Positions 1-20,987 of a stretch of DNA of 64,000 nt are shown piece by piece. The notes under the pieces are model-generated. The model had not been told where the DNA came from and did not search any database. It saw only the letters and a program-made list of their open reading frames with translations. The stretch lies in the NCBI GenBank assembly GCA_030524525.1, contig JAUNGI010000003.1, positions 1 to 64,000 on the forward strand, written 5' to 3'. The number at the start of each line of letters is the position of its first letter. Within the stretch, counting starts at the first letter, position 1. The position numbers were made by a program, and so were the translations under genes. The stretch is from Lachnospiraceae bacterium (GTDB lineage: Bacteria; Bacillota; Clostridia; Lachnospirales; Lachnospiraceae).

Positions 1-1
1 G

Positions 2-367: not shown

Positions 368-383
368 GGAGTAGGTGATAGGG

Positions 384-836: not shown

Positions 837-840
837 TGGG

Positions 841-1329: not shown

Positions 1330-1332
1330 GAC

Positions 1333-1806: not shown

Positions 1807-1818
1807 GGAGGAATAATC

Positions 1819-2031
1819 ATGGCAGAAACAAGACAGGCTGCAACCTTAACGAGCATTGAGGAGCTCAAGCAGAAGCTTGGCGTATCTGATGCGGTGTTTG
1901 AAGGGACGAAGGCAGCCAACGGATGGAAGAGCGGAAGACAGGTAGAGGAGCAGGAGTTCAGGGAAGCCTGTGAAGCCTTCCGGAAAGCCCCGGTTGACGG
2001 GAGCACGAAGGACAAGGAGGCGAAGGGATAA
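1819..2031 (+). CDS. Small phage protein upstream of the sheath gene (function unknown)
   Basis: 70 residues, acidic and helical, preceded by a good AAGGAGG (about 1805-1811) and ATG. Its TAA stop overlaps the ATG of the sheath gene by one base (TAATG), so translation is probably coupled. It occupies the position of Mu gp38, but I do not recognise the Mu gp38 family signature. The segment TSIEELKQKLGVSDAVFEGTK suggests a small helical domain. It could be a tail assembly or sheath-capping factor; this is a guess from position only. Confidence 0.5.
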   Translation: MAETRQAATLTSIEELKQKLGVSDAVFEGTKAANGWKSGRQVEEQEFREACEAFRKAPVDGSTKDKEAKG

Positions 2032-3449
2032 TGTACGGAGATGTAAATGTAAAGGTAGAAGACGGGAACCTTGGGCGGAGCAGCGCAACGGGAACCGGGA
2101 CACAGATTAAAATAGGCATTTCCAACGTGGAAAGCAAGGCACCCATCCTGATTAGCGGCACTATGAACGCCAAGAAAATCAAGGAAAAGGTTGGCAACAC
2201 GCCTCTTGCGGATGCCTGCATTGATGCAGTTGAGTGGGGCGCATCCTCTATCTACTGCATCCCGGTAAAGGCAGGGACAGCCGGGACGATTGGGGAAATC
2301 ACCGAGAACAAGACGGGATATGGTACCTTTGCTGTGAAGGGAGCCCCCAACAATGCCTATGACATTGTGGTTGAGGTCATGGATGCCGGGGAGTGCAATG
2401 AAGGAAGCTTCCGGTATTCCTTGGATGGAGGGAACACCTTCACGGAGGAGATGACCATACCTGTCACCGGAGAGGCGGAGCTGGAAACTACCGGGCTTAG
2501 TGTGAAGTTCACGGATGCAGAGGGCGGTGACAGCTTCAAGGAGGGAGACAGCTTCTCCTTCTCCACAACTTCCCCGGCTATGAGCAACGAGTCAGTCATC
2601 AGTGCGGTGGAGAGCCTCATCAACAGCCCCCTTGTGTTTGAGTTCGTTCATATCGTTGGGGTATCCTCTAAGGCTTTGTGGGCTTCCCTGTGTACGCTTG
2701 CCAATGACTTCCTGACGAAGTACAAGAGACCGCTGTACTTTGTGTGTGAGGCAAGAGGAAAGAAGGCGGATGAGACCCTTGAGGAGTATGTGAACGCCAT
2801 GCTTGAGGAACGGAAGGGCATCAACAACATGTACATTCAGGTGGTGTGCAGCAACTCCCGGTATCAGAGGATGGATGGCAGGGTTCAGGTCATCAACAAC
2901 GCAGGCATTGTGACCGGGCTTTATGGCGCAGCCAAGGAGTCACAGAGCATTGGGGAGGTGAAGAGCTTCCCTATCTCTGAAGCCAAGATGCAGGAGCTCC
3001 TTCCGGAAGGGATTGAGGACTACATTGAGACTTTGGATAAGGCAAAGTTCGTGACCATCAGGCAGTACGTTGGCAAGGAGGACTACTATGTGACCTCCGC
3101 AAATATGATGTCACCGGAGGGAAGCGATTATGCCTATGCGGAGGATGTCAGGGTGTCGAACAGGCTTGTCAGGGCGGTCAGGGCAGAGGCACTCAATGAG
3201 CTTCAGGTGGAGATTGACCCCGGAGACATTGAGACGAGCATCACCAATATTCAGGAGCAGCTCAACACGCCTGTGGAAGATGCCATCCGGGACAAAATCA
3301 TCAGCTCCGGAAGCGTAGTCATTGACACGGAGCAGCTCAACATCCTTGTGGATGAGAGCCTTGACATCCGTGTGACTTATGTACCTATGGGGCATGTAAG
3401 GGAAATGAACATCACCTTTGCAGTAGAAAACCCATACACAGCATCTTAG
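2031..3449 (+). CDS. Contractile tail sheath protein (DUF2586-like)
   Basis: 472 residues. This is the largest protein between the head-tail connectors and the tube gene, in the place of Mu gpL (sheath). The N-terminal half contains IKIGISNVESKAPILISG and the segment WGASSIYCIPVKAGTAGTIG, which I recognise from DUF2586 sheath-like proteins. The middle is a beta-rich insertion (about residues 100-185), probably a surface domain, and the C-terminal end (SLDIRVTYVPMGHVREMNI) resembles the strand-exchange tail of sheath proteins. It would form the contracting outer tube that drives DNA injection. The tail tube gene follows 17 bp downstream. Confidence 0.75.
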   Translation: MYGDVNVKVEDGNLGRSSATGTGTQIKIGISNVESKAPILISGTMNAKKIKEKVGNTPLADACIDAVEWGASSIYCIPVKAGTAGTIGEITENKTGYGTFAVKGAPNNAYDIVVEVMDAGECNEGSFRYSLDGGNTFTEEMTIPVTGEAELETTGLSVKFTDAEGGDSFKEGDSFSFSTTSPAMSNESVISAVESLINSPLVFEFVHIVGVSSKALWASLCTLANDFLTKYKRPLYFVCEARGKKADETLEEYVNAMLEERKGINNMYIQVVCSNSRYQRMDGRVQVINNAGIVTGLYGAAKESQSIGEVKSFPISEAKMQELLPEGIEDYIETLDKAKFVTIRQYVGKEDYYVTSANMMSPEGSDYAYAEDVRVSNRLVRAVRAEALNELQVEIDPGDIETSITNIQEQLNTPVEDAIRDKIISSGSVVIDTEQLNILVDESLDIRVTYVPMGHVREMNITFAVENPYTAS

Positions 3450-3466
3450 GAAGGAGGTAGAGATAC

Positions 3467-3913
3467 ATGGCAACGAAGCAGTTAATCAATGGGAAGGTCT
3501 ATGACTGGTCAAGCGTGACAATCACCGCTTCCGGCATGGAGAACATGGAGCCAATGGAAATCTCCTATGATGATGAGCAGGAGAGTGAGCCTATCTATGG
3601 CAAGGGCGGAAAGATTAGAGGGTATGGTACCGGAAATCAGAAGAACTCCGTCAAGCTGTCCCTGCTCCGTGAGGACTTCAATGAGATGTGCAGGGTCATC
3701 CAGTCAAAGGGATACAAGAACTTCTACAAGTATGTCATCCCGAAGATTGTAGTGAGCTATGCAGACGAAGGAGCTGCAACCTGTACGGATGTCCTCACCA
3801 ACATTGTGCTGTCAAAGCGGAGCTTCAAGGCGGCACAGGGAGACAAGTCCATGAAGGTAGACCTTGACGGTGTCGCAATGGGCGGCATCAAAATCAACGG
3901 TCTTGAAGCGTAA
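3467..3913 (+). CDS. Tail tube protein
   Basis: 148 residues starting MATKQLINGKVYDWSSVTI, preceded by AAGGAGG. It lies directly after the sheath gene and before the tail assembly chaperone, the invariant position of the inner tube protein in contractile phages. The beta-rich pattern (WSSVTITASG, EISYDDEQ, KNSVKLSLL, KIVVSYADEG, MKVDLDGVAM) and size suit the tube fold. It should polymerise inside the sheath on the tape measure protein. Assignment is from order, size and secondary-structure pattern. Confidence 0.75.
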   Translation: MATKQLINGKVYDWSSVTITASGMENMEPMEISYDDEQESEPIYGKGGKIRGYGTGNQKNSVKLSLLREDFNEMCRVIQSKGYKNFYKYVIPKIVVSYADEGAATCTDVLTNIVLSKRSFKAAQGDKSMKVDLDGVAMGGIKINGLEA

Positions 3914-3952
3914 CTGATAACAGAATAAATGACAAAAACGGAGGTATGAACC

Positions 3953-4348
3953 ATGAACGAAGCAAGAGAAGAGCAGCTCCTCAATGCAGGGAGAGCAGTT
4001 GAAGCAGAGAAGAAAACGGATGTTGAGAGCCTGAAGAAAAAGTATGCCGGGGCGGATGAGAAGGTCTACACGGTAGTCACAACGGTACAGGTGGATGATG
4101 AGACGGAGGAAGAGTTCACATTCCTCTTCCGGAAGCCGAAGCCTGCATCCTATGACAGGTATGTGAAGACCATGTCCAACTCCGTGACCAAGGCATCCAA
4201 GAGCTTTGCGTTTGACAACATCATTGACGAACAGAGGGAGATGCTGAAGGAGACCGTGGATGAATATCCGGCTATCACTATCAGCCTTGCGGACAAGCTC
4301 CTCCGGATGCTTGGGTTGGCAGACACAACATCAGTAAAAAAGCTGTAG
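3953..4348 (+). CDS. Tail assembly chaperone, short (zero-frame) product
   Basis: 131 residues with a coiled-coil N-terminus and the segment EEEFTFLFRKPKPASYDRY, typical of small tail assembly chaperones. The position between tube and tape measure genes is that of lambda G and Mu gp41. The zero frame stops at TAG (4346-4348), six bases after a canonical slippery heptamer, and the -1 frame is open for 75 codons. The short product is thus the G-like member of a G/GT pair. A GGAGG lies about 10 bases upstream of the ATG. Confidence 0.8.
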   Translation: MNEAREEQLLNAGRAVEAEKKTDVESLKKKYAGADEKVYTVVTTVQVDDETEEEFTFLFRKPKPASYDRYVKTMSNSVTKASKSFAFDNIIDEQREMLKETVDEYPAITISLADKLLRMLGLADTTSVKKL

Positions 4349-4569
4349 AGGATGCCAAGGAGCAGTTCAAAAGCAGCTTTATAAGCTATGGGAAGATGGT
4401 CATATACACCTATCTTCCCAAGGAACTGCTTCCGGAAAGCTTTGAAGACCTGACCTTTGAAGAGTTCTTTGACCTGTACGGTCAGGCGGACTGTGCAAGG
4501 GAAATGAGAATTGAAGATATAGAGACAGGCGTGGCAAAAGGGATAGCAGACAATTTTAGTGACGAATAA
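3953..4569 (+). CDS. Tail assembly chaperone, -1 frameshift (GT-like) extended product
   Basis: If ribosomes slip one base back at 4336-4342, translation continues from codon GCT at 4342-4344 to TAA at 4567-4569. This adds 75 residues beginning AVEDAKEQFKSSFISYGKMV and ending GIADNFSDE, for a product of about 205 residues. The extension has no start codon or ribosome site of its own and is acidic and helical, as T-domains are. The G/GT arrangement is conserved in long-tailed phages, where a minority of ribosomes make the long form that binds the tape measure protein. The join is two segments, 3953-4342 and 4342-4569. Confidence 0.8.
4336..4342 (+). promoter_or_regulatory. Programmed -1 frameshift site (A AAA AAG)
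   Basis: In the zero frame the codons read GTA AAA AAG CTG TAG. The last A of GTA plus AAA AAG forms the heptamer A AAA AAG, one of the most efficient bacterial -1 slippery sites. A stop follows two codons later, and the -1 frame is open for 75 codons up to 4569. Confidence 0.85.
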
Positions 4570-4574
4570 AAAGC

Positions 4575-4595
4575 CCCACAGCCGGAAACTGTGGG
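4575..4595 (+). other. Stem-loop between chaperone and tape measure genes
   Basis: CCCACAG (4575-4581) pairs perfectly with CTGTGGG (4589-4595) around a 7-nt loop. No T-run follows, so it is not a clear terminator. It may set the ratio of tail transcripts or protect an RNA end. The stretch 4570-4675 has no other coding signal. Confidence 0.5.
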
Positions 4596-4675
4596 ACTTC
4601 AATACACCTCTGATATGGTCTTTGTAAGGAATAGTATATCACATTTTAAGGAAAAAGCAACAGGGAGGTGGTTGC

Positions 4676-7600
4676 ATGGGTATGGAGTCAGTATACAAAT
4701 TGTCTGTCATCCTGAACTTGGTGGACAACCTTTCCAATCAGATGAACGGTGTGCAGAGCAGCGTGTCAGGAAGCGTGAACAAGCTCAATTCTGCCTTTGG
4801 GACAATGCAGAAGGCAGGGGCAGCCATGGCAGGGATAGGCGGAACCATCACCGGGCTCTGTATGAAGACAGTCACAGCCACCTTTGACACACAGAACGCT
4901 TTGGGAGAGCTATCCTCTTTGGGAGTGAAAGACCTGAAGGCGGTGGAGGATGCGGCAAAGAGCTTCTCCGACACATGGGCAGGCACAAGCAAGGCGGACT
5001 TCATAACGGCATCCTATGACATTAAATCAGGTATAGCATCCCTGACGGATGAAGGCGTGGCGCAGTTCACGCAACTGGCAGCCCTGACGGGCAAAGCCAC
5101 AAAATCAACAACGGAAGAGATGGGCTCACTGTTCGCTACAGGGTACGGTATCTATAAAGGGTTCTATGATGATATGTCTGACCTTGAGTTTGGTGAGATG
5201 TTCTCCGCCGGGATTGCAACAGCAGTTAAGAACTATAAGACATCCGGCTCCGAGATGGCAAGCTCCATATCGGCACTTGGAGCCACAGCGACAAATGCCA
5301 ATGTCCCACTTGAGGAGCAGCTTGCTATTTTGGGACAGCTTCAGACCACAATGTCCGGTTCTGAAGCGGCAACAAAGTATAAGTCCTTCCTCAATCAGGC
5401 TTCCAGTGCCGGAGAGAAGTTGGGACTGACCTTCCTTGATACCAACAATCAGCTCCTATCCATGCCGGAAATCCTGACGGAGCTGAAGGGAAAGTATGGG
5501 GAGACGATTGATGCAGTAGAGAAGAGGGAACTGAAGGAAGCCTTTGGAACGGATGAGGCGGTAGCCCTCATTGACCTGTTATACAACAATGTGGAGACCC
5601 TTGACAGCGGAATACAGGACTTGCAGGGGAGCATGAAAAACGGAATATCCGTGACGGAGGAGATGGCGGAAGCCATCAACAACACACCGGAGCAGAAATT
5701 CCAAGTGCTGAAGCAGCAGATACACAACAATGTGGAGGAGCTTGGAAGCGGACTCCTCCCGGCAGTCAATAACACCATGGACAAGGTGAGCGGACTGATA
5801 AAGAAGGGCTCCGAGTGGATAAGCAACAATCAGGAGACCGTGCAGAGCATCATGAACATAGCCCTGAAGCTTGGCGTGTTCCTTGTGATTGCCGGAAGCG
5901 TGATGGGCGTGGTAGGAAGCCTTGGGAAGCTTTTCCTGTCAGCCAAGAACGCCATAAGCCTTGTAAAGACCGCAACATTGGGAATGAATACAGCCTTCCT
6001 TGCTTCACCTATAACGTGGGTGATAGTCGGGATAGTGGCTCTTGTAGCCGCCTTTGTAGTCCTATGGAATAAGTCGGAAGCCTTCCGGAACTTTTGGAAG
6101 GGACTGTTTGAACAGGTACGGTCAGTGGTCACTCAAGCATGGTCAACAATACAGCCTGCTTTGCAGAATTTGGGAAAGAAGCTCATGGAGCTATGGCAGG
6201 CGGTGCAGCCCATCATACAGATAGTTGAAAAAGTAGGGGCAGTTGTCCTTGTGGTGCTTGGTTCCATCTTTGCCGGAGCCATTCAGGGAGCTATATCCGC
6301 CCTGACACCTCTGATAGATGCCTTTTCAAGCTTTGTATCGTTTGTCACCAATGTGGTGAATATGGTGGTTGCCCTGTTTAAGGGTGATTTTTCAGGGGCG
6401 ATTGATTTTGCATCCGCAGCGGTAGGGGACTTCAAAAACTTCATAGAAAACGGGTTCAATGCAATCCTCTCATTTATCGGGGGCTTTGCATCCGGATTTT
6501 TGGATGCGGTAGGCGGAGCTCTTTCTGCTATAGGAATTGATGCGAGCGAGACTATCAGTAATATCAAAAATACCGTGAAAAACGGGCTTGAGGCGGTAAA
6601 GGGCTTCTTTGGGAATATCTTGGGAGCAGCCGCCGACACGGTGAAGGAAAAGCTTGGGAACATGAAGGCAGCCTATGAGGAGCATGGCGGCGGCATCAAA
6701 GGTGTGGCAGCGGCGGCAATGGAAGGCGTGAAAGGCTTTTATACATCCGGCTTCACATTCATTGACAACCTGACGGGCGGAAAGCTCTCAAGCATCAAGA
6801 ACCAATTTACAGAGAAGATGTCCGGAGTGGCAAATGCAGTATCAACAGGGATGTCAGCGGCTAAGAATTATGCAAGCACACAGCTCTCCAACATGCAGGC
6901 GGCATATCAGGCAAGCGGCGGAGGCATTAAGGGTATCGTATCCGCAACCATGACGGGGGTACAGGGCACCTTCAGTACAGCCTACTCCGCAATCAATACT
7001 TTAACGGGAGGAAAGCTTGAGAGCATCCGTTCTACTATCACCACCAAAATACAGGCGGCGAAGGATACGGTCTCTTCAGTCCTTGACAGTATCAAGTCAG
7101 CTTTCTCATCAAAGCTTGAAGCGGCAAGGTCGGTAGTATCCAGTGCGATTGAGAGAATAAAAGGTGTTTTTAACTTTTCGTGGAAACTTCCGGACTTGAA
7201 ACTGCCACATATTAGTGTGAGCGGAGGAGAGGCACCTTATGGTATCGCAGGAAAAGGCTCATTGCCTAAATTCTCCATCCAGTGGTACAGAGATGGAGGT
7301 ATCCTGAACGGGGCAACCATTTTTGGAGCAATGGGAGGGAACCTCTTGGGAGGAGGAGAAGCCGGAGCGGAAGCGGTGCTGCCATTATCAGAGCTGTGGA
7401 AGCAGATGACGGAGATTGTCCGTGGCGTAGTCAAAGGAGAAAACGAGGAAGGCGGTGAAAGCGTACAGCAGACCGGGGCGAACATCACAAGTGCCCTGAC
7501 ATCAAAGGCTGCATCAGTACGGAAAGAAAAAGAGACGAAGACAACCACAAACAAAGAGACCTACACAACCGAGAAATGGGGCAGGGAAGGCGGTACAACC

Positions 7601-7726
7601 ATCCATCAGATTAGCTTCACGGTAGACATAAGCAAGATTAAGGACTTGCCGCTGCTCTACAAGTTGATAGATGAGCTGAAGGATGCACAGAACCGGACAG
7701 ACAGCCCTACTCCGGCAACAACATAG
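4676..7726 (+). CDS. Tail tape measure protein
   Basis: 1016 residues, by far the longest phage gene here, directly after the chaperone pair. It is alanine/glycine-rich and helical, with hydrophobic segments near residues 400-460 (for instance WVIVGIVALVAAFVVLW) and 520-545. Two copies of a repeat unit start near residues 665 and 741 (AAYEEHGGGIKGV and AAYQASGGGIKGI, each followed by a LTGGKL motif). The protein sets tail length and is ejected during infection. Start at 4676 is supported by GGGAGG nine bases upstream; a second ATG lies two codons on. The repeats are of the sort that change in number when tail length evolves. Confidence 0.9.
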   Translation: MGMESVYKLSVILNLVDNLSNQMNGVQSSVSGSVNKLNSAFGTMQKAGAAMAGIGGTITGLCMKTVTATFDTQNALGELSSLGVKDLKAVEDAAKSFSDTWAGTSKADFITASYDIKSGIASLTDEGVAQFTQLAALTGKATKSTTEEMGSLFATGYGIYKGFYDDMSDLEFGEMFSAGIATAVKNYKTSGSEMASSISALGATATNANVPLEEQLAILGQLQTTMSGSEAATKYKSFLNQASSAGEKLGLTFLDTNNQLLSMPEILTELKGKYGETIDAVEKRELKEAFGTDEAVALIDLLYNNVETLDSGIQDLQGSMKNGISVTEEMAEAINNTPEQKFQVLKQQIHNNVEELGSGLLPAVNNTMDKVSGLIKKGSEWISNNQETVQSIMNIALKLGVFLVIAGSVMGVVGSLGKLFLSAKNAISLVKTATLGMNTAFLASPITWVIVGIVALVAAFVVLWNKSEAFRNFWKGLFEQVRSVVTQAWSTIQPALQNLGKKLMELWQAVQPIIQIVEKVGAVVLVVLGSIFAGAIQGAISALTPLIDAFSSFVSFVTNVVNMVVALFKGDFSGAIDFASAAVGDFKNFIENGFNAILSFIGGFASGFLDAVGGALSAIGIDASETISNIKNTVKNGLEAVKGFFGNILGAAADTVKEKLGNMKAAYEEHGGGIKGVAAAAMEGVKGFYTSGFTFIDNLTGGKLSSIKNQFTEKMSGVANAVSTGMSAAKNYASTQLSNMQAAYQASGGGIKGIVSATMTGVQGTFSTAYSAINTLTGGKLESIRSTITTKIQAAKDTVSSVLDSIKSAFSSKLEAARSVVSSAIERIKGVFNFSWKLPDLKLPHISVSGGEAPYGIAGKGSLPKFSIQWYRDGGILNGATIFGAMGGNLLGGGEAGAEAVLPLSELWKQMTEIVRGVVKGENEEGGESVQQTGANITSALTSKAASVRKEKETKTTTNKETYTTEKWGREGGTTIHQISFTVDISKIKDLPLLYKLIDELKDAQNRTDSPTPATT

Positions 7727-7739
7727 GAGGTGAGGCAGT

Positions 7740-8291
7740 ATGCTGTATGTGCAGGAGAAGGTGGTGAAGCTTGGCGGCATATACCTGAAGGGACAGGTCA
7801 CAAGCGTGGAAGTGCAGGAGGCAGGAAGCGTGTATGTGGCACAGGATGAGAAGGGAAGATACAAGAAGTCACAGCCTGTAGGCTATGAAAATGGCAAAGT
7901 GATGATAGACATACTTCTTGAGAGCACAAAGGGAGCTACCACATTGGAGCAGCTCACGGAGATGCAGAGGCTCTTCAAGCCCTATGGTCAGACCAAGCCG
8001 AAGCTCCTATCCATAGTCAATGAGGACTGTGCCGCCCGTGGCATCACAAAAGTCTATTTCAAGAACCTCACCTCCAAGAAGGTCATATCAGAGAGCAAGC
8101 GTATAGCCTCCTTGGAACTGTGGGCTCCTGACATAGTCGGGATAAAGGTGAAAAAGAAGACCACAAAGAAAAAGACCACAAAAAAGACTACCAAGAAGAG
8201 CAAGAGCAAGAAGTCAAAAAGCAAGAGCCCGGCAAAGGACAGCCGGAGCACATCCAAGGGAAAGAAGGCAGCAAAGAAGGCTGTCAAGTAG
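7740..8291 (+). CDS. Baseplate/tail protein in Mu gpN (gp43) position with lysine-rich C-terminal tail
   Basis: 183 residues. Residues 1 to about 135 form a compact beta/alpha domain (GIYLKGQVTSVEVQEAGSV, VMIDILLESTKGATTLEQL). From about residue 137 to the end the protein is low-complexity and strongly basic, almost entirely Lys, Thr, Ser and Ala (KKTTKKK-type repeats). It lies between the tape measure and hub genes, where LysM-domain or DNA circularisation-type proteins usually lie. The basic tail could bind DNA, the tape measure protein or cell-wall polymers. Neither function is shown by a motif I recognise. Confidence 0.55.
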   Translation: MLYVQEKVVKLGGIYLKGQVTSVEVQEAGSVYVAQDEKGRYKKSQPVGYENGKVMIDILLESTKGATTLEQLTEMQRLFKPYGQTKPKLLSIVNEDCAARGITKVYFKNLTSKKVISESKRIASLELWAPDIVGIKVKKKTTKKKTTKKTTKKSKSKKSKSKSPAKDSRSTSKGKKAAKKAVK

Positions 8292-8306
8292 CAGGAGGTG
8301 AGAGGC

Positions 8307-9068
8307 TTGGGATACAAAAAGCTAATATCCCCGGAGTTCCGGGTGACGGTAGGAGATTATGAGATAACGGACGGGATAGAGGTGGAGTGCTTCTCAAGCA
8401 AGGAGTCTCACATGGACTGGTGCCGGGTGGAGCTGTCCCCAAAGCTTCAGGGTGTCCTGAAGCTTGAGGATATGGATGAGGCAAGCGTGGAGCTTGGGTA
8501 TGAGGATGACTTTGACAGCCTGATTGAGGGCTATGTCAGATGCGGTGACACGGACTACTGGAAAGAGATAATGATAAAAGATGACATGATGAAGCTTGAC
8601 AGAGTGACCATCAAGGCATCCTTTGTAGACTGTGAGCCGCAGGATGTCATCCGGTATGTACTGGCTTGCGCCGGAATTGAAAACTATGTCCTGTCTGAAG
8701 AGAATTATGGAAAAAAAGACCTTTTTGTTATCGACAAAAAGAGCGGCATCAATACCATAGCGGAAGTCAACAGCTCATGGGGCATCAAGAACCCATTCTT
8801 CTTTCAGAAAAAGGTGTTCTATTGGGGCACAAATGAAGAACAGAAGGAGATATATGTCCTTGAGGAGGATGAAACCATCCTGTCCCTGAATAAGTATGGA
8901 GACCTTTGGGAAGCGGAGACAATAGCCATCCCTTGGATACACCACAGCCAAGAGGTTGAGGTGCAGCACAGCAAGTACAGCGGCATTGTGACCGTGGAAA
9001 AGACGATAGTGAGAAGTGACGATACCGGGGCAGTACACATGTATATCTATTTTGCAGGAGGTGAGTGA
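8307..9068 (+). CDS. Baseplate hub protein (gpD / Mu gpP / XkdQ-like)
   Basis: About 253 residues. The N-terminus (KLISPEFRVTVGDYEITDGIEVECFSSKE) and WCRVELSPKL resemble hub proteins of contractile tails. A later part has the pattern of a second beta domain with residues such as EEDETILSLNKYGDLWEAETIAIPW. It should form the trimeric hub between tube and spike. The TTG at 8307 was chosen: AGGAGG at 8293-8298 is 8 bases upstream, while the in-frame GTG at 8298 overlaps that site. The spike gene follows after 1 bp. Confidence 0.65.
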   Translation: MGYKKLISPEFRVTVGDYEITDGIEVECFSSKESHMDWCRVELSPKLQGVLKLEDMDEASVELGYEDDFDSLIEGYVRCGDTDYWKEIMIKDDMMKLDRVTIKASFVDCEPQDVIRYVLACAGIENYVLSEENYGKKDLFVIDKKSGINTIAEVNSSWGIKNPFFFQKKVFYWGTNEEQKEIYVLEEDETILSLNKYGDLWEAETIAIPWIHHSQEVEVQHSKYSGIVTVEKTIVRSDDTGAVHMYIYFAGGE

Positions 9069-9069
9069 G

Positions 9070-9363
9070 ATGTCTGACATGATGAAGATATTTGTGGAGC
9101 AGGAGCTTCAAAATCAGATAAAGAAGAATTATCCGCACATGCAGTATCCTCCCGGCTTGTATGCAAAAGTGGTAGCGGTGAAGCAGGACGGGGAGCTGTA
9201 TGAGGCAACTCTCAAGATACTTGACAAAAACAGGCAGCCGGACAGCAGTTTCCCGGAAGTCCCGAAGGTAAAGACGGATATACCTGTCCTGAAGAATGAG
9301 ATTGTGGCAATCGTGCTCATGTATGGTGAGTGCAAGCCTTATATCATAGGGAGGTGCTTCTGA
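9070..9363 (+). CDS. Baseplate spike / assembly protein V-like (Mu gp45-like OB domain)
   Basis: 97 residues beginning MSDMMKIFVEQEL with AGGAGG about 9 bases upstream. The core (GLYAKVVAVKQDGELYEATLKIL, then VLKNEIVAIVLMYGECKPYIIGRCF) has the five-strand rhythm of the OB-fold at the N-terminus of gpV/gp45 spike proteins. It lacks a long beta-helix tip, so it may be only the hub-plug part. Its stop overlaps the ATG of the next gene (TGATG). Placement after the hub and before the gp46-like gene matches Mu. Confidence 0.6.
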   Translation: MSDMMKIFVEQELQNQIKKNYPHMQYPPGLYAKVVAVKQDGELYEATLKILDKNRQPDSSFPEVPKVKTDIPVLKNEIVAIVLMYGECKPYIIGRCF

Positions 9364-9788
9364 TGCAGATAACAGGCGCAAATGATGTAGACATCATGCT
9401 TGATGAAGACGGTCAGCCCGTGTCAGACGGGAACGGGGACACCGCCCTTGTATCAGATGACGGGTGTTGGCTTCAGGATATTAAGAATGAGGCAATGACC
9501 GAAGAGGGAGAGCTCTTCTATGAGGACGAGGAAGGGGATGCAAGCTATGGGTGGAGCCTGCTTGACTTTATGCAGGGAGAGTATGATGACTTCACGAAGA
9601 TGGAGATACAGCAGCGCATCCGTTCCAAGATGTCCAAGAGGGACTATATTGATGCCGGAAGCATACAGACGGAGGTGGACTTTGACGGGCACCTCTACCA
9701 TATCAGGGTAGCTTTCCGGAAGACAGACAGTGAGAGCGAGTACAACATTGACATTGAGAGCAATGGCGTGGAGGTGATTGTGGAATGA
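9363..9788 (+). CDS. Baseplate wedge protein (Mu gp46 / DUF2634-like)
   Basis: 141 residues. The C-terminal half (QQRIRSKMSKRDYIDAG, EVDFDGHLYHIRVAFRKTDS, YNIDIESNGVEVIVE) fits the gp25/gp46 wedge fold: a helix followed by antiparallel strands. The N-terminus is acidic, and residues ALVSDDGCWLQDIKNEAM match the usual opening of such proteins, where the gene product describes a local tail coordinate frame. Start and stop overlap both neighbours (TGATG at 9361-9365; the next ATG lies at 9785), indicating translational coupling. It should link hub and gp47-like wedge. Confidence 0.65.
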   Translation: MQITGANDVDIMLDEDGQPVSDGNGDTALVSDDGCWLQDIKNEAMTEEGELFYEDEEGDASYGWSLLDFMQGEYDDFTKMEIQQRIRSKMSKRDYIDAGSIQTEVDFDGHLYHIRVAFRKTDSESEYNIDIESNGVEVIVE

Positions 9789-10936
9789 TAGATGAGAGCA
9801 TCATGGAGAAGATTATCCCGATACCGGATGAGGATGAAGAAATGGAAAATGTGCAGGGAGAGCTTGAAGATGAGGGCTTCCCCATAACGAACTTCAAAAA
9901 AGGCGGCATCTTCTATCACCTTTGCCGGATGCTTGTGACCATATACATAGAGCTGAAGGAGCTTGCCCGGACTATCGTGAATAGCTGCTTCATCAAGCAC
10001 GCTGAAGGGGACTGGCTGAAGATTAAGGCAGCCGATTACTCCAAGCAGCAGAAGGAGGCAAAGAAAGCCAAAGGATATGTGAGCATATACCGGAGCGAAT
10101 ACAACAACGCCCTTCAGGTCACGAAGGGGCATTGCTTTAAGACAGAGCCGGATGCCGGGGGCAAGGAGCTGAAGTTCTATTGCTGTGAGAACACGGTCAT
10201 TGATGCCGGGGAGCCTTTGGGAATGGTGCTTGTGGAGGCGGAGGAAGCCGGGACTTATTACAACATAGCACCGGGCAGGATAACCATATCCATGATACAC
10301 CTTGACGGTGTGGATTATGTGACCAATGAAGAGGACTGGCTCTTTGAGGAAGGAGCCGAGGAGGAAGACCTTGAAGACCTCCGGGATAGGTGTATGAGCT
10401 CATGGGCGGAACTGGCTACAAGGACGATAGAGGAGAAGCTCCGGAACGCCGCAAAGTCGGTACCCGGTGTGTTGGATGCCCGGATTGATGCACAGCATCC
10501 GAGGGGGCAGGGTACCGTGGATGTGATTGTCACGGGGGCAGCCGGGGAAGCTTCCCCGGAACTGATAAGGAAAGTGGGGGAAGCCATTGAGCCCCTGAAG
10601 GGCAACTATGAGGACTACCTTGTGAAGTCCAGTGAGATAGTGAGGCAGGACTTTGAGCTTGTGGTGTACCTTGCTGAAGATGCGGCAACGGATGGGGTGG
10701 ATGCACAGGCAGAAAAGCTCATTGAGGACATGATGGCTCTGACAAGGGGAGAAATGAATACCCTGTACAGGGACAGCATTATCCAAGTGCTTAGTACGAA
10801 GATTGAGGAATACCGGAAGACGGACATCCTGCAACCGCCTGATGACATGGTTCTTGAGCAGGACAAGGTCATCATGGCAGGGGACATCACCGTGACTGTC
10901 CGGAACGTAGCACAGAGCGCAAGGGGGAAGGAGTGA
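9785..10936 (+). CDS. Baseplate J-like protein (Mu gp47)
   Basis: 383 residues with clear baseplate J features: NCFxKHAEGDWL-type opening of the core, a KGHCFKTEPDAGGKELKFY segment, AEEAGTYYNIAPGRI (the family's conserved GxxxNV-type turn), and the C-terminal EEEDLEDLRDRCMSSWAEL followed by VPGVLDARIDAQHPRGQGTVDVIV. The protein forms wedge arms around the hub. A GGAGGTGATTG sequence precedes the ATG. The order gp46-gp47-gp48 is kept. Confidence 0.85.
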   Translation: MIDESIMEKIIPIPDEDEEMENVQGELEDEGFPITNFKKGGIFYHLCRMLVTIYIELKELARTIVNSCFIKHAEGDWLKIKAADYSKQQKEAKKAKGYVSIYRSEYNNALQVTKGHCFKTEPDAGGKELKFYCCENTVIDAGEPLGMVLVEAEEAGTYYNIAPGRITISMIHLDGVDYVTNEEDWLFEEGAEEEDLEDLRDRCMSSWAELATRTIEEKLRNAAKSVPGVLDARIDAQHPRGQGTVDVIVTGAAGEASPELIRKVGEAIEPLKGNYEDYLVKSSEIVRQDFELVVYLAEDAATDGVDAQAEKLIEDMMALTRGEMNTLYRDSIIQVLSTKIEEYRKTDILQPPDDMVLEQDKVIMAGDITVTVRNVAQSARGKE

Positions 10937-10943
10937 TGCCACC

Positions 10944-12245
10944 GTGATAGAGAATTTTATTGAATACATGTGGTATCTGCTCACTACTCCATTTAAGAAG
11001 CTGAAGAAATCCCTGAATAAGTGGTACACCTTTTGCCGGGTGTTCGGTAAGAGGTTTGACGAGGCGAAGGAGGACATCCTCCGGGCAAGGGATGAAGGCA
11101 TGGTTGCCACATGCAGCCACGAGATGCTCCCGGTACATGGAGCTGACCGGAGGCTCACCCGGTATGAAGGAGAGCATCCGGAGAACTTCCGCTCAAGGAT
11201 AGCCATGTATGAGGAGATATGCAAGCTTGGCGGAACCAATGAGGGCGTGCTGCTTGCGGTCAAGACCCTTGGCTATGCCTCCCCGGTCTTGGTGAGGGCA
11301 AATGACCTGACAGGCTTTGTCCATTTCACACTGGATGGAAGCTGGCTCCTTGACGGGAGCCGGATATTGGAGTCTGACACATTGGAAAACAGGTGGGCGG
11401 AGTTCTACATCATCATTGTGATGGATGTGGATGAGGAGCATCCTATCAGCTTTGACATCATGAGGAAGACCGTCAGGAAGTGGAAAGAGGTAGGGGCGAA
11501 GGACAACTACTTCTTCCGGTACAACTTGGCTGTCAAGGAGATACACACCGGGAACTTCCTAGAGGTGCTCTATAAGAAGTACCTACACTATTATGACTAC
11601 AGGAAGCTTGACGGGATGTGGAAACTTGACGGGAGCTATGTACTGGATGCGGAGATGACCCACATCAGCAGCCGGGTAGGATACCGGTATGAGAGCAGCT
11701 ATGGGCTCCATGAAGCCGGGCTTGCTGCCATGGCTTACAATTACGCCTGCCGGGTGGTAGAGAGTGCCATCCTGAAGGCAGTATACAGCTTCAGGATGTA
11801 CTACTATGATTATCTGAAGACAGATGGCTCATGGCAGACAGACGGAAGCCATGCGGTGGATGCGGAGATGTCCCAAAGGGATATGAAATGGGGCACCATC
11901 TTCCGGCATCAGCATGAAGAGGAGCTCATCCTGAAGCAGAGGTACCGGATGCCGCCCTGTGAAGAGGCATACAGCATCAGGAAGGCATTGGAAAGGTACC
12001 GGATGGTCATTGATTACTATGACTATCTGAAGCTCAATGGGCTGTGGAAGCTGACGGGCTCCCGGCTCTTGGATGCACAGAGGACAGAATACACCACCAA
12101 GCAGGCGTACCGCTTTGGTGTAGAACATACAAGGGAGTACATGGTGATATGGCATGAGGAGCACAACCTCATCTTCCTTGATGGAACATGGAGCCTTGAC
12201 GGTTCCAAGACAATAGATGCTTGGCAGAAAACGGAGGTATTGTAG
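10944..12245 (+). CDS. Baseplate wedge protein (Mu gp48 / tail protein I-like) with LDGxWxLDGS repeats
   Basis: 433 residues, GTG start at 10944 with AAGGAG 11 bases upstream. The N-terminal half (residues 1 to about 210) has the gp48-like helical opening and the segment HPENFRSRIAMYEEICKLGG. The rest contains five copies of a motif of the form LDGxWxLDGSxxLDA, near residues 133, 226, 292, 363 and 413. Three of them are preceded by YYDY and separated by helical spacers of about 45-55 residues. The repeats probably form stacked beta-hairpins that carry the fibre. In Mu the equivalent protein is shorter, so this one is extended by repetition. Confidence 0.7.
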   Translation: MIENFIEYMWYLLTTPFKKLKKSLNKWYTFCRVFGKRFDEAKEDILRARDEGMVATCSHEMLPVHGADRRLTRYEGEHPENFRSRIAMYEEICKLGGTNEGVLLAVKTLGYASPVLVRANDLTGFVHFTLDGSWLLDGSRILESDTLENRWAEFYIIIVMDVDEEHPISFDIMRKTVRKWKEVGAKDNYFFRYNLAVKEIHTGNFLEVLYKKYLHYYDYRKLDGMWKLDGSYVLDAEMTHISSRVGYRYESSYGLHEAGLAAMAYNYACRVVESAILKAVYSFRMYYYDYLKTDGSWQTDGSHAVDAEMSQRDMKWGTIFRHQHEEELILKQRYRMPPCEEAYSIRKALERYRMVIDYYDYLKLNGLWKLTGSRLLDAQRTEYTTKQAYRFGVEHTREYMVIWHEEHNLIFLDGTWSLDGSKTIDAWQKTEVL

Positions 12246-12246
12246 A

Positions 12247-12627
12247 ATGGCAACAAAAAGCGTAATAACCAAAATCAGAAGAAAAAAGATGGCTGAAGCA
12301 AGCCATACAACCGGGAAGATTGCAAAAATCACGCACATTGCACTTGGTTCCGGTGGAGTCAACGGAGACGGTACCGTGATTGTGCCGCTTGCGGAGAATG
12401 TGGCACTGAAGAGCGAGGTGGTAAGAAAGCCATACACCTCATCAACCAAGACTTCAGACACATCCTATGAGTATACCATCAAGCTTGAGGAAGATGAGCT
12501 TGTGGGCGTATTCATCAGTGAGATGGCACTCATTGACGAGGACGGGGATGTGGTGGCGTTCTCTAACTTCCTTGCAAAAGGCAAGGATGAGACAGAGGTG
12601 ACATTCACCATTGAAGACAATTACTAG
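12247..12627 (+). CDS. Phage tail-collar fibre-like protein
   Basis: 126 residues starting MATKSVITKIRRKKMAEASH, preceded by CGGAGG. The segments ITHIALGSGGVNGDGTVIVPL, KTSDTSYEYTIKLEEDELVG and FISEMALIDEDGDVVAFSNF match the N-terminal collar domain of tail fibres (DUF3751-type). It would join the baseplate to the receptor-binding protein encoded next. It is much shorter than usual fibres: the collar domain and the DGR-diversified tip are separate genes here. Confidence 0.7.
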   Translation: MATKSVITKIRRKKMAEASHTTGKIAKITHIALGSGGVNGDGTVIVPLAENVALKSEVVRKPYTSSTKTSDTSYEYTIKLEEDELVGVFISEMALIDEDGDVVAFSNFLAKGKDETEVTFTIEDNY

Positions 12628-12640
12628 GAGGTAGATGAAA

Positions 12641-13564
12641 ATGGCAAATTTAACAGCAGCGGATAGCCCGGAGCTTGTCCTTCAGATGACAGCAATGGAA
12701 AGGACTACCCCGGCACACTATGATGAATGGAATGTGAGGCATCAGCAGTTCCTTGACAATGACAAATACCTGAATGAGCAGTTTGTCAATGTCTTTTCCG
12801 ACAGCGCAGCGGCTCATAATTCCATCTACAGAGGCAAGAACCTCACCAACGTGTACACGGTTGATGAGATATGCGAGCGCATCAGCGCAGGAACTTTCAA
12901 AGACCTCTACATAGGGGATTACTTTGATGTGAGTATCACTACAAGTTTGGGCGATACCGAGACGGTCAGATGTGTCTTAGCAGGCTTTGACATTATGTGG
13001 AACAATGGAGACACAGCTTTTACAAAGCACCATGCTGTGATTGTGCCGAAGGACTGCTTCAAGACCAAGGCAAAGATGAATGAAACTAATGTGACCACCG
13101 GAGGATATGCAGGCTCCGCCATGCACACGGAGGTGCTCCCGGTTTATGCGGCAGCCTTGCAAACAGCCCTGAATAATCATATAATTAGCCACAGAGAGCT
13201 GCTCTCAACAGCAGTATCTACAACAGGCAACTCCAACGCAGGGGCAGGCTTTACAGGTTATGCAAGCAGTTGGGCGTGGAGTGACTGCCTGCTTAGGCTG
13301 ATGAGTGAGATACAGGTATATGGTTCCACGGTGCTTAGTTCGTCCTTCTATGACACAGGCAATGCCAATATCCAGTTCCCGTTGTTCCGGTTAGCCCCTA
13401 ACCTGAAGGTAGCAGGGCTTGGACATAACGGTAGCAGGATGTGGTATTATTTGAGTGCTGTGGTGTCGGCGGCGGCGTTTGCTTATTGTTACATTATTGG
13501 TGTTAGTTATTATCACTCCGCCGCCGGGGATGGTGGCGTGCGCCCGTATTTCTGTATCGGTTAA
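12641..13564 (+). CDS. DGR target protein: receptor-binding tail tip with C-type-lectin-like variable domain
   Basis: 307 residues. The N-terminal part (ERTTPAHYDEWNVRHQQFLDND) looks like a fibre-attachment segment. The rest is a C-type-lectin-like domain in the style of DGR targets, with WSDCLLRLMSE, FPLFRLAP, RMWYYLS and the closing GDGGVRPYFCIG. Residues about 274-304 are encoded by the variable repeat, so the last surface loop of the domain is the diversified site. Aromatic residues (Tyr, Phe) fill many variable positions. The ATG at 12641 was preferred to one at 12635 because AGGAGG at 12626-12631 gives a 9-base spacing. It probably binds host surface receptors, as Mtd does in Bordetella phage BPP-1. 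Confidence 0.9.
   Translation: MANLTAADSPELVLQMTAMERTTPAHYDEWNVRHQQFLDNDKYLNEQFVNVFSDSAAAHNSIYRGKNLTNVYTVDEICERISAGTFKDLYIGDYFDVSITTSLGDTETVRCVLAGFDIMWNNGDTAFTKHHAVIVPKDCFKTKAKMNETNVTTGGYAGSAMHTEVLPVYAAALQTALNNHIISHRELLSTAVSTTGNSNAGAGFTGYASSWAWSDCLLRLMSEIQVYGSTVLSSSFYDTGNANIQFPLFRLAPNLKVAGLGHNGSRMWYYLSAVVSAAAFAYCYIIGVSYYHSAAGDGGVRPYFCIG
13453..13557 (+). repeat. DGR variable repeat (VR)
   Basis: The 95-base core 13453-13547 aligns without gaps to TR 14256-14350 (offset 803). It differs at nine positions, all adenines in TR: 13484, 13490, 13494, 13497, 13502, 13503, 13508, 13511 and 13547. Eight are A to T and one is A to G. The 76 non-A bases of the core are identical. The last ten bases (13548-13557) differ at non-A sites, consistent with IMH versus IMH*. 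The repeat encodes the final variable loop and lies immediately before the stop codon. Confidence 0.95.
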
Positions 13565-13570
13565 TCTTTA

Positions 13571-13595
13571 ATCTGCCCCCTGTATGGGGGCAGAT
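13571..13595 (+). other. Hairpin/cruciform downstream of VR
   Basis: ATCTGCCCCC (13571-13580) and GGGGGCAGAT (13586-13595) form a perfect 10-bp stem with loop TGTAT. It starts 7 bases after the target stop codon. Similar stem-loops just 3' of VR are known to aid target recognition in DGR homing. No T-run follows, so it is less likely to be only a terminator. Confidence 0.75.
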
Positions 13596-13615
13596 GACCG
13601 GAAGGAGGAAACAGG

Positions 13616-14212
13616 TTGAGCGTACTGAAGAATAAAAGAAGTGTATCCAGTTTGGAGTTCTATCATAATGCCATAACGCTCCGGAGAGAAATTACCATGC
13701 TGCTTCTCCGTGACTTTGGCATCAAGGACAAAGTGAGGAGCATCAAGTCATTGTATGGGGTGCCGGGGATGGAGCCGGAGGACGAGCAAAAGTTCCGGGA
13801 GATAGTGGAAAAATATGAAATGAAAGCCACGATAATAGAGGAGTATCCGGCATGGCTCATTGACAAGATGCGGAATAACATCATGAATATCCTCCACAAC
13901 ATGATAATGAACATCACGCAGGCAAACACCATCTATCCAGTATGTGAGAGTGAGTTCTATGACCGGAGAAACTTCCAAAATCATGCCATAGGGAACTGTG
14001 AGCAGCTCCTTCAGGAGATGCAGTACATCATTTCTATCATCCCGGTGGATGCACAGAAGTACATGAGATATGTGGACATGATTGAGAAGGAGATAGCCCT
14101 CCTGAAGGGATGGAGAAAGAGTGACAACCGGATACTGAAGAAAATCAGGGAAAACGAAGCAGCCAAGGCGCAGAAAGAAAGCACTTCCCAAAAGGCTGAA
14201 AAGAAAGTATAA
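13616..14212 (+). CDS. avd: DGR accessory variability protein (Avd-like)
   Basis: 198 residues, starting at TTG (13616) with GGAGG about 9 bases upstream. The protein is almost entirely helical: SSLEFYHNAITLRREITMLL, a middle block rich in Met/Ile/Asn (RNNIMNILHNMIMNITQAN), NCEQLLQEMQYIISIIP, and a charged C-terminal helix. This is consistent with the four-helix-bundle Avd proteins that bind the DGR RT and template RNA. It lies between target and TR as in BPP-1. It is longer than the roughly 130-residue Avd of BPP-1, with an extra basic tail (after about residue 165) that could contact RNA. Call rests on context plus helical pattern. Confidence 0.75.
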   Translation: MSVLKNKRSVSSLEFYHNAITLRREITMLLLRDFGIKDKVRSIKSLYGVPGMEPEDEQKFREIVEKYEMKATIIEEYPAWLIDKMRNNIMNILHNMIMNITQANTIYPVCESEFYDRRNFQNHAIGNCEQLLQEMQYIISIIPVDAQKYMRYVDMIEKEIALLKGWRKSDNRILKKIRENEAAKAQKESTSQKAEKKV

Positions 14213-14255
14213 TTATCCGGGGCAAGCTTTGTATCAAGAGTCATATCCCAACGCA

Positions 14256-14360
14256 GAGTGCTGTGGTGTCGGCGGCGGCGTTTGCTAATTGTAACAATAA
14301 TGGTAATAGTAATAATCACTCCGCCGCCGGGGATGGTGGCGTGCGCCCGATTTCGTGTAT
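14256..14360 (+). repeat. DGR template repeat (TR)
   Basis: Non-coding copy of the VR region between avd and the RT gene. In the VR frame it would read SAVVSAAAFANCNNNGNSNNHSAA-like residues, that is, seven AAT/AAC codons clustered at the variable positions, the classic AAY design for A-directed mutagenesis. The core has 19 adenines; 9 are altered in VR. A flanking GC-rich block (14317-14349) is identical in both copies and is the likely start of the IMH-type element. Confidence 0.95.
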
Positions 14361-14518
14361 GTATACTAAGTGTAGGCTAAGTGCCGATATACGATACAGG
14401 AAAGGAAAGCTTGACCTTCCGAAAGGTAAAGAAGCCCATCTTCTAGTAGAGGGAGGATGGGGGAGCATCTTGATGTACCCTGATACGTCAGTTGGTACTA
14501 GAAACGAGGTGAAACTCT
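14361..14518 (+). ncRNA. TR-RT spacer, likely part of the DGR template RNA
   Basis: No convincing gene lies between TR and RT. The stretch can fold: ACCTT/AAGGT around CCGA near 14416-14429, and CCCATC/GATGGG near 14435-14461. In BPP-1 the equivalent spacer is needed to bind RT-Avd and to prime cDNA synthesis, so a similar role is inferred. GAGGTG near 14505 is the ribosome site of the RT gene. Confidence 0.5.
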
Positions 14519-15730
14519 ATGAAAGATATGGAGTCTGTATATGATGCCAACTCCCTGCTTGATGCCTTTAACAGGTCTAAGAAGGGGACAGGGTGGAAGG
14601 AGTCAGTACAGCGGTATGAAATGAACCTTTTGAGGAATATCAACCAAACTCAAAAGGAGCTGAAGGATGGAACCTATGAGCAGAAGGACTTCTATGAGTT
14701 CAAGCTGCAAGAGAGGGGCAAGACAAGACATATCAAGTCCATGCACATCTCTGACCGGGTGGTACAGAGGTCAGTCTGTGACAACGTGCTTGTCCCGGAG
14801 CTCTCCAAGTACCTGACCTATGACAATGGGGCATCCATGGAGGGCAAGGGTATCCATTTTGCAAGGAAGAGGTTGAGCACACATCTTCACAAGTTCTACC
14901 GGAAGCACAAAAGCAATGAAGGGTATGTGCTGCTGATTGATTTTAGCAAATTCTTTGATAACATAGTCCATGACGGGCTGATAAGGGAGATGCGGAAAAA
15001 GATTGGCGATAAGGAGACCATGGACTTCATTGAGAAGCTCATAGACACCTTCAGGGTGGATGTTTCCTACATGACGGATGAAGAATATGCCAACTGCATG
15101 AATACGCTGTACAACGCTTTGGAACACGCTGAAATTGACAAGGCAAAGCTGACAGGCGAAAAGTACATGAGGAAGTCTGTGGGTATTGGAAGCCAAATAT
15201 CCCAAATATCCGGAGTTTACTATCCGACAAGGATAGACAACTACTGTAAGATTGTGAGAGGGCTGAAATACTATGGACGGTACATGGATGACATCTATAT
15301 CATCCATGAAGACAAGGAGTACCTGAAGGGACTCCTGAATGACATACACGGGATATGTGATGAGCTTGGGCTTTTTATCAATCCGAAGAAAACACAGATA
15401 GTAAAGCTGTCCCATGGCTTCACATTCCTTAAAATCAAATATAAGCTCACAGAGACAGGGAAAGTACAGGAACGCATCAGCAAGGAGTCCGTCACAAGAC
15501 AGCGGAGAAAGCTGAAGAAGTTCCGGGAGCTCATGGATGCAGGGAAGATGTCCTTTGCAGATGTGAGGTGTTCCTATGACTCATGGAAGGGCGGTGTGAG
15601 CCATTATGACTCATACAACGTAGTCAAAAGCATGGATAAGCTCTTTGATGAGCTTTTCATCCAACCGTTTATTGAAGGAGGACACAATAATGGCAGCAAT
15701 GAAGAAAAACGAGATAGAGCAGAAAATTAG
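14519..15730 (+). CDS. DGR reverse transcriptase
   Basis: 403 residues. RT motifs in order: a SMHISDRVVQRSVCDNVLVP block (about residues 76-95), DFSKFFDN with the first catalytic Asp at 141, GIGSQISQISGVYY (222-235, the motif 4 block in which DGR enzymes carry variants of GNxxSQ), and YMDD at 255-258 in YYGRYMDDIYII. A thumb-like basic region follows (TRQRRKLKKFRELM). Lack of group II maturase or endonuclease domains, the size, and the adjacent TR/VR pair identify it as the DGR RT. It copies TR RNA with errors at adenines. Its 3' end overlaps the next small ORF by 41 bases. Confidence 0.95.
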   Translation: MKDMESVYDANSLLDAFNRSKKGTGWKESVQRYEMNLLRNINQTQKELKDGTYEQKDFYEFKLQERGKTRHIKSMHISDRVVQRSVCDNVLVPELSKYLTYDNGASMEGKGIHFARKRLSTHLHKFYRKHKSNEGYVLLIDFSKFFDNIVHDGLIREMRKKIGDKETMDFIEKLIDTFRVDVSYMTDEEYANCMNTLYNALEHAEIDKAKLTGEKYMRKSVGIGSQISQISGVYYPTRIDNYCKIVRGLKYYGRYMDDIYIIHEDKEYLKGLLNDIHGICDELGLFINPKKTQIVKLSHGFTFLKIKYKLTETGKVQERISKESVTRQRRKLKKFRELMDAGKMSFADVRCSYDSWKGGVSHYDSYNVVKSMDKLFDELFIQPFIEGGHNNGSNEEKRDRAEN

Positions 15731-15941
15731 AGACCTGAAAACCAAGCTCTCCTGTCAGGAGTCGGATATTGGTGACTGGAAGATTGCCAAGTGCATTGAG
15801 TATTCCACGCTTGGCATGGAGCCACCCTATGACCTTCAGGAGCTCCACAAGCAGAGACAGGTCATCCGTGATGAGATTGGAGCCTTGGAAGAGGAGCTTG
15901 CAAAGTGCGGAGATGAGGATGAAGCCGCTGCTGAAGAGTAG
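15690..15941 (+). CDS. Small coiled-coil protein overlapping the DGR RT gene (possible second accessory factor)
   Basis: 83 residues starting MAAMKKNEIEQKIRDLKTKL. AAGGAGG lies 8-9 bases upstream of the ATG inside the RT gene. It has two heptad-like helices separated by DWKIAKCIEYSTLGMEPPYD, and an acidic end (KCGDEDEAAAEE). The strong ribosome site, overlap with the RT gene and position before the terminator indicate it is translated with the DGR operon. I do not recognise its family. It could be an RT partner or an unrelated phage moron protein. Confidence 0.65.
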   Translation: MAAMKKNEIEQKIRDLKTKLSCQESDIGDWKIAKCIEYSTLGMEPPYDLQELHKQRQVIRDEIGALEEELAKCGDEDEAAAEE

Positions 15942-15971
15942 GCGTTATTTGCAAAATTATTGTCAAAAAAG

Positions 15972-15995: not shown

Positions 15996-16029
15996 TGTTT
16001 GTAAAACCGGGAAATATTTCCCGAAAATC

Positions 16030-16077
16030 TTTGTCAAAAGTTTTGAGAAAGTTTGTCAAAAATTTTGAGCGGCTACA
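16030..16077 (+). mobile_element. Putative prophage right end with two 22-bp-spaced transposase-site-like repeats
   Basis: TTTGTCAAAAGTTTTGAG (16030-16047) and TTTGTCAAAAATTTTGAG (16052-16069) differ at one base and start 22 bp apart, the spacing of the R1 and R2 MuA-binding sites. A third partial match, TTGTCAAAAAA, is at 15960-15970. The complementary strand at 16077 begins 5'-TGTAGCCGC, close in character to the 5'-TGAAGCGGC start of the Mu right end. The end coordinate is inferred. Confidence 0.7.
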
Positions 16078-16457
16078 GAAACGTCGTCCGCCTCGGCTTC
16101 TCCGGTAAAGTTCACACGGATCAGCGTCGCGCCGTCCGCGTTCGCTTCGTACTCGCCGGGAGCTACCCAGCTGATCCGGACGACGCCCGGTGTGTCGGCG
16201 TTTACGGCGTACATAGCCACATAGGCCGACGTTACTTCCACGCCGTCATAGGTAAGCGCCGCGCTGTCGTAGGTTACGACAACGACACCGTCGGTTACCG
16301 TTGTGTCGGTGACGATCTGGGCGGTCGTTTTGCCGGAAGCTTCCGACATGCTGATCCACACGGAGCCGTCTTCTTCTGCGAAAGCCGTCATGGTGAGCGC
16401 CGCGCACAGAAGAACCGACAGCAGCAACCAACTGCTTGTTCGTTTTACACGTTGCAT
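16056..16457 (-). pseudogene. Secreted cohesin-like domain protein truncated by prophage insertion
   Basis: A frame of 133 codons. Residues 1 to about 27 form a signal peptide (basic start, LLLSVLLCAALTM, cleavage after AFA). The rest resembles a cohesin-type or related secreted beta-sandwich (VVVVTYDSAALTYDGVEV, GVVRISWVAPGEYEANADG, LIRVNFTGEAEADDV). The last seven codons and the stop lie inside the putative phage end, so the natural C-terminus is missing. AAGGAG precedes the ATG. The remainder of the gene should lie beyond the left prophage end, with a short target duplication. A short secreted product may still be made. Confidence 0.7.
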
Positions 16458-20960: not shown

Positions 20961-20987
20961 AAGAACATAACAGACGGGATCAAAAAT

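Follow-up and report, generated by a model that had tools for sequence, protein, structure and literature searches.

A complete diversity-generating retroelement at the right end of a Mu-like prophage of a Lachnospiraceae bacterium, with a predicted clamp around its template repeat

The DNA analysed here, called the window, is a stretch of 64,000 nucleotides from a Lachnospiraceae bacterium; it comprises bases 1-64000 of contig JAUNGI010000003.1 (C48) of a genome assembly of 2.65 Mb in 62 contigs. Between positions 12635 and 15941 it harbors a complete diversity-generating retroelement (DGR), composed of a target gene with a variable repeat (VR), a hairpin, the gene for Avd, a template repeat (TR), a spacer and a YMDD-containing reverse transcriptase (RT), all on the plus strand. 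An earlier note on this DNA had placed a complete canonical DGR at 12641..15941, and the order of the parts, the YMDD motif and the TR/VR pair bear this out. The target gene starts at 12635 or 12641 (both starts are possible) and ends with the stop codon 13562-13564, the VR (13453..13557) lying at its 3' end. Directly 3' of the VR follows the hairpin (13571..13595) with a 10-bp stem and the 5-base loop TGTAT. Avd (13616..14212, with a TTG start) matches the PHROG family 'Avd protein of DGR'. The TR (14256..14360), like the VR, was delimited by a repeat search and by TR/VR comparison, and the RT gene (14519..15730) encodes the motifs YMDD and IGSQISQ. Its end is overlapped by a small open reading frame of 83 amino acids (15690..15941; phrog_17180, 1.2e-13).

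The RT was assigned to the DGR clade by sequence matches and motifs. It matches RVT_1 (3.4e-19), and its closest solved relative by sequence is 8ub7_A (328 residues, E 2.6e-18; the next match has 2e-4), a chain named 'Reverse transcriptase' in an entry with the title DGR ribonucleoprotein reverse transcriptase, so that the similarity to DGR RTs named as a check in the earlier note was found. An RT of a group II intron or of a defence system was considered and rejected because the NCBIfam matches were far under their cut-offs and 8ub7 was the closest solved relative. Relatives of the RT were located at 56 viral and 20 genome loci.

A Pfam search with the target, Avd and the small open reading frame found no family at 0.001. 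Some homologues of the target carry a precomputed match to PF19789, which we take to be DUF6273. The predicted structure of the target has a C-type lectin fold in about residues 84-309 and matches C-type lectin folds including that of a Treponema DGR target, in agreement with the proposal that the gene is lectin-like. A relative of the target with 36.6% identity is found in Lactobacillus phage JCL1032, whose annotation lists it as a structural or tail fibre protein. For the 83-residue frame 59 relatives were found, none with a precomputed Pfam domain; it lies downstream of the RT in this group of Mu-like phages and at two further loci (L011 and L050), not at the other distant RT loci. The hairpin fold is present in 13 of 13 loci, always with a loop of 5 bases (TGTAT or TATAT), and in L008 and L065 its stem is altered on both strands.

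Within 11500-17000, TR and VR make up the sole long direct repeat, 105 bases in length with 89% identity and a distance of 803 bases; the families next in length there span 20-30 bases. In the core of the repeat (its first 94 bases) all 8 mismatches lie at TR adenines, and each of the 7 AAY codons of the TR is changed in the VR. When TR and VR of the window and 12 near relatives were compared, TR adenines held 122 of the 123 core mismatches (A to G 62, A to T 40, A to C 20), the lone non-adenine mismatch being a T to C change in L061. Two loci were left out of this count: L064, which has an N in its VR, and L009, which has no separate VR. In L064 the N, near 9018, breaks the VR of one of two prophages in one isolate, perhaps owing to mixed VR sequences or to the repeat itself; in L009 (2630-3702) the target gene leads directly into the TR, with neither Avd nor the interval between VR and TR present, which might reflect recombination of VR with TR or their merging during assembly. 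A further VR elsewhere in the host genome was searched for and rejected, the only other match of the TR being a chance match of 21 bases (E 0.74).

In seven pairs of loci the two TRs are either identical or one position apart. Three of these pairs are near-identical elsewhere and differ at 9-15 of the 94 VR positions, nearly all of them TR adenines. L004 and L060 have 0/800, 1/691 and 0/1195 differing columns in the flanks and 15/94 in the VR (15/15 at TR adenines); L065 and L008 have no flank difference in any of the three stretches and 9 in the VR (9/9); L061 and L062 have 1, 1 and 0 in the flanks and 11 in the VR (10/11). The other four pairs show more flank change, with VR differences at TR adenines in 11 of 11 cases (L063/L010), 13 of 13 (L069/L006), 9 of 10 (L007/L062) and 12 of 14 (L007/L061). 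Targeted rewriting would be the plain reading of this VR-confined divergence. Because near-identical pairs differ almost only in the VR at TR adenines, the DGR lineage appears to be active now or to have been so recently; judged from such comparisons, the evidence applies to the lineage and not to the copy in the window at the present moment.

The element is carried by a transposable phage. The prophage ends on the right at window base 16077, its last stretch (16023..16077) containing two direct 22-base repeats, likely transposase sites, and terminating in ...GCGGCTACA. The five bases that follow, GAAAC (16078..16082), are a target-site duplication, since they also stand beside the left phage end, which was found on contig C29 of the same genome (1578 bases, 81% identical to the relative G001). 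With GAAAC on both sides, C29, a missing middle part and C48 are most likely one insertion, and the host flanks on the two contigs, translated separately, look like two parts of one surface-protein gene. Matches to the left-end pattern on C39 and C51 had 3 mismatches and, not exceeding the control count of 3, were dismissed as chance. When 13 right ends (of the window, of contig C23 of the same genome and of 11 loci) were aligned, the terminus up to GC(G/A)GCTACA was common to all, and the host flanks differed from one another in all 11 cases with enough flank; L108, where the contig stops at the end, and L007, with two bases, had no usable flank. Contig C23 (16086-16139) also terminates in this 54-base right end, here bordered by other host DNA; the junction may stem from another copy of the phage, from a subpopulation in which it has transposed, or from contamination. 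A reading frame downstream of the junction is presumably nitroreductase-like.

Three complete relatives of 34.2, 34.3 and 35.3 kb begin with TG and have 5-base duplications (AAAAT, GATAT and GTTTG), the left end of the third having been picked among three candidates by likeness to the other two. Ends of the form TG...CA, a 5-base target duplication and many insertion sites are those of a Mu-like phage, as are the head and tail proteins gpT and Gp36 encoded in the window. The complete relative G003 encodes a Mu transposase, an AAA/TniB-like partner and the Mu proteins portal, F, I, gpT, Gp27 and Gp36. The C-terminal domain of Mu transposase (PF09299) is found in the genomes of six of six relatives, in four of them (G001, G003, G005 and G006) on the DGR contig itself; the window's own incomplete assembly gave no match to PF02914 or PF09299. 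The proposal of a Mu-like transposable phage thus stands on its head and tail genes, an exact right end with its duplication and the transposase of the relatives; that the DGR lies near the right end of the phage also holds, with the correction that the phage stops at 16077 and not at 15941.

By Pfam and PHROG matches, window 1-16077 is the right part of this prophage; the first base of the window is the start of the contig and falls inside the phage head genes, the left half being absent from the window. The Mu-like head and contractile-tail module (1..12245) comprises a piece of gpT (5-367), Gp36 (375-836), tail S (841-1329), sheath (2031-3449), tape measure (4676-7726), baseplate J (9785-10936) and a tail I-like protein (10944-12245), all on the plus strand, and the tail is taken to be contractile because the sheath gene is present. 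The tail I-like protein contains several copies of a YYDYLKxDGxWxxDGS-like motif. Between this module and the target gene, a tail-collar fibre N-terminal domain is encoded at 12217..12627 (plus strand; PF12571, 6.4e-9; phrog_1780, 1.5e-15) by a gene of its own, in line with the proposal that collar and diversified tip are encoded separately. Elsewhere in the window, 20001-22000 shows a strong AT skew (-0.375), and within 26001-30000 the GC content falls to 0.39 at 28-30 kb.

The RpoB of the window's host is 78-81% identical to those of the hosts of four relatives. The phage part of the window aligns with G001 at 89% identity over 16093 columns; the figures for G003, G006 and G005 are about 88%, 85-86% and 65-70%. 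Phage DNA that is 85-89% identical in three of four cases, in hosts that are yet about 20% apart in RpoB, would fit wide movement between hosts, and DGR-made variants may permit such movement between distant hosts. The 'gut' setting of the phage has its basis in the record titles of relatives. Window 1-16068 had no near DNA match (megablast) among 50,697 phage records, and the 83 phage records with a match to the RT were all less than 60% identical. By DNA comparison the phage is a new lineage, with no near relatedness found to the described DGR phages Mushu and hankyphage.

The combination of a DGR with a Mu-like prophage is reportedly already named in the title of a paper on Firmicutes by Toussaint from 2013. 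Two published cases speak against calling a DGR unusual on a Mu-like phage, so that the combination is already known and what is new is the lineage. The Faecalibacterium phage Mushu is likewise a transposable Mu-like Firmicute phage with a DGR, Avd and a 5-base duplication (PMC5883640); its target, unlike that in the window, is described as Hoc-like. The Bacteroides hankyphage, too, is a transposable phage of the gut; its DGR acts on a tail fibre, and the activity of this DGR has been measured (PMC12135933). It differs in its Bacteroides host, its siphovirus tail and a VR located in a much longer protein (PMC6199706). The separate target gene cannot be called unusual either: the DGR of phage BPP-1 (mtd-avd-TR-brt) likewise has its target gene separate from a neighbouring tail-fibre gene, whereas the attachment site in the BPP-1 record is identical to a tRNA end, which differs from the transposition of the window phage. 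Among phage records, the best match to the RT (40% identity) is in Roseburia phage Shimadzu, which has the same order of target, Avd, RT and small open reading frame; its target domain lies inside a longer tail-fibre gene, and with an integrase gene annotated as pseudogene its Mu-like nature is not established. The 10-bp stem and 5-base loop of the window hairpin compare with a GC-rich stem of 7-10 bp and a GRNA tetraloop in the published description (PMC3240598).

DGRs with RTs of about 50% identity show strong conservation in two intervals, one separating Avd from the TR and the other, the spacer, separating the TR from the RT. We folded these stretches with RNAalifold on 18 sequences, picked from 77 DGR loci (the window and 76 others) for a full upstream stretch and for similarity; near-duplicates, cut contigs and loci without a spacer start found by the script were left out. 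In the predicted fold a clamp, P1, pairs 14219..14230 upstream of the TR with 14406..14417 in the spacer. Helix P2 (14347..14405) pairs 14347-14365, that is the 3' end of the TR and the first spacer bases, with spacer bases 14388-14405 and contains an inner stem (14375-14377/14383-14385). The strands of P1 and P2 abut in the spacer, so that 14388-14417 would bridge both ends of the TR with few bases unpaired. Helix P4 (14466..14511) contains in its 3' strand the whole of GAGGTG (14506-14511), which precedes the ATG of the RT gene by 7 bases and is the likely ribosome-binding site of that gene. All these elements are read on the plus strand. In the window, position 14414 is an A where near relatives have a T, which gives one mismatch in P1.

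Both-side changes were found at 33 of 53 pairs (9/12 in P1 and 14/16 in P4, helices 7 and 8), compared with 19.2 +/- 2.0 in shuffled alignments, none of 500 of which was as high, and with 4-11 when the strands were slid by 1-3 columns. The cells that pair amount to 97.5%, as against 82.7% after shuffling and 40-48% after sliding. An Rfam search of 13400-14600 found no family at E 1. The flanks of the TR and the spacer are thus predicted to fold with strong covariation, P1 closing the TR into a loop.

At E 1, a covariance model of the spacer built from 12 sequences matched 58 of 80 sources, of which 52 also passed E 0.01 and 6 lay above it; many of the 58 were training sequences or near-duplicates of them. 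Each source was matched at one place, on the plus strand at the upstream edge of an RT, and nowhere else in 1.13 Mb at E 1; in the 30 cases measured the match ended from 2 bases inside to 198 bases before the RT match. Among the sources matched are a metagenome-assembled genome labelled Gammaproteobacteria (L078) and Acutalibacter phage Fontainebleau (L120). In 8 of 21 DGRs that had a model match and came from outside the derivation set, a helix of 11-13 bp without gaps lies at similar offsets. The clamp was then sought in 33 DGRs from outside that set, reduced to 31 by dropping the near-duplicates L033 and L036, with a near-ungapped test whose offset windows were set after the earlier clamp results were known; this test was relied on because ranking by duplex energy was noisy for single loci. 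A clamp of 11 or more pairs and no more than one mismatch was present in 21 of the 31 (16 without mismatch), their clamps of 11-16 pairs having quite different letters at similar offsets. Cross pairings between loci reached this standard in 166 of 930 cases (18%; 37 without mismatch) and shuffled upstream flanks in 61 of 930 (16). The clamp scores of the loci's own pairings sum to 746, compared with 518 +/- 18 after re-pairing (0 of 100000 as high). Shimadzu has a 12-bp clamp without mismatch; in BPP-1 the clamp is ambiguous, with 8-bp, 11-of-12 and longer 16-bp pairings on overlapping spacer bases, and was counted among the 21 via the 11-of-12 pairing. The clamp thus appears to recur in most of the diverse DGRs compared, with no Rfam family describing it. 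No clamp closing a TR is described in titles or abstract beginnings of the literature searched, a search that did not cover the BPP-1 RNA papers and from which absence from print is not claimed.

The DGR would rewrite the tip of the target by adenine-specific reverse transcription. In the TR transcript, spacer bases 14388-14417 would form a nearly unbroken series of pairs, in P2 with the TR's 3' end and in P1 with bases preceding the TR; this would close the TR into a loop, and Avd and RT would bind the folded RNA. For BPP-1, PMC12875486 describes how the spacer folds and recruits bRT-Avd, how one of its adenines starts cDNA synthesis at the TR's 3' junction, and how a motif within the avd 3' end terminates that synthesis. 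Synthesis of cDNA beginning from the spacer inside P2, with P2 as priming duplex, would fit this published model. The RT would then read through the TR, misreading adenines, and would halt at P1; the cDNA would replace the VR, helped by the hairpin, and the resulting tail-tip variants may bind different bacterial surfaces. P4 may act as a brake on RT translation by hiding the ribosome-binding site, the transcript serving either as template or as RT messenger; for BPP-1, brt is given as having no clear ribosome-binding site (PMC12875486). That the template RNA of DGRs is in general a closed clamp, in which P1 sets the stop, the neighbouring helix the start and a third helix, by masking the site where ribosomes would bind ahead of the RT, lets one transcript act now as template and now as messenger, is a tentative proposal that we hold somewhat more likely to fail than to stand.

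We consider it probable (about 0.9) that the window contains a complete DGR at the right end of a Mu-like prophage, which likely rewrites the predicted lectin tip of a likely tail protein. At the level of sequence this reading is carried by the order of the parts, the adenine-only difference in the core, the phage ends with their duplication and the VR-confined divergence in three pairs of relatives. The DGR in this copy could instead be a silent remnant, intact-looking yet not expressed or working in its host, as the split of the prophage over contigs and the mismatch in P1 might suggest; we regard this as quite unlikely, the frames of target, Avd and RT being open, all seven AAY codons of the TR being changed in the VR with no non-adenine change in the core, and close relatives differing almost only in the VR. 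The target might also be another surface protein of the virion, such as a mucus-binding decoration protein of the capsid, rather than a tail tip. The position of its gene after those for baseplate J, tail I and collar and the tail fibre annotation of its JCL1032 relative make this unlikely.

With respect to the RNA, the helices could be an artefact of sequence conservation caused by promoter, coding or other DNA-level signals. Several results weigh on that side. The structure was derived from the same 18 sequences on which it was first counted, and related sequences inflate shuffle tests. Further pair types showed no excess over shuffles (242 of 500). The covariance model misses 22 of the 80 sources, including BPP-1 and Shimadzu, and at the standard of at least 11 pairs no clamp was found in 10 of the 31 held-out DGRs. 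The own pairing beats every cross pairing in only 12 of the 31, because the GGG/TCC ends of the clamps are shared, which also lets cross pairings score well, and a permutation of energies over 19 loci with a model match was weaker (179 of 20000 as good). Against an artefact speak the collapse of the covariation on sliding, the held-out DGRs that keep the clamp with other letters, and the absence of model matches away from the RTs. An artefact is therefore, in our judgement, very unlikely, and a folded RNA is the preferred explanation.

The DGR described here would vary the host tropism of its phage, and it adds a well-delimited lineage to the Mu-like phages that carry such an element. Naturally occurring pairs of relatives with hardly any difference outside the VR are a ready test set for tropism. 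The covariance model locates TR-RT spacers across diverse DGRs, and the predicted RNA fold suggests limits for priming and termination that can be tested in DGRs other than that of Bordetella.

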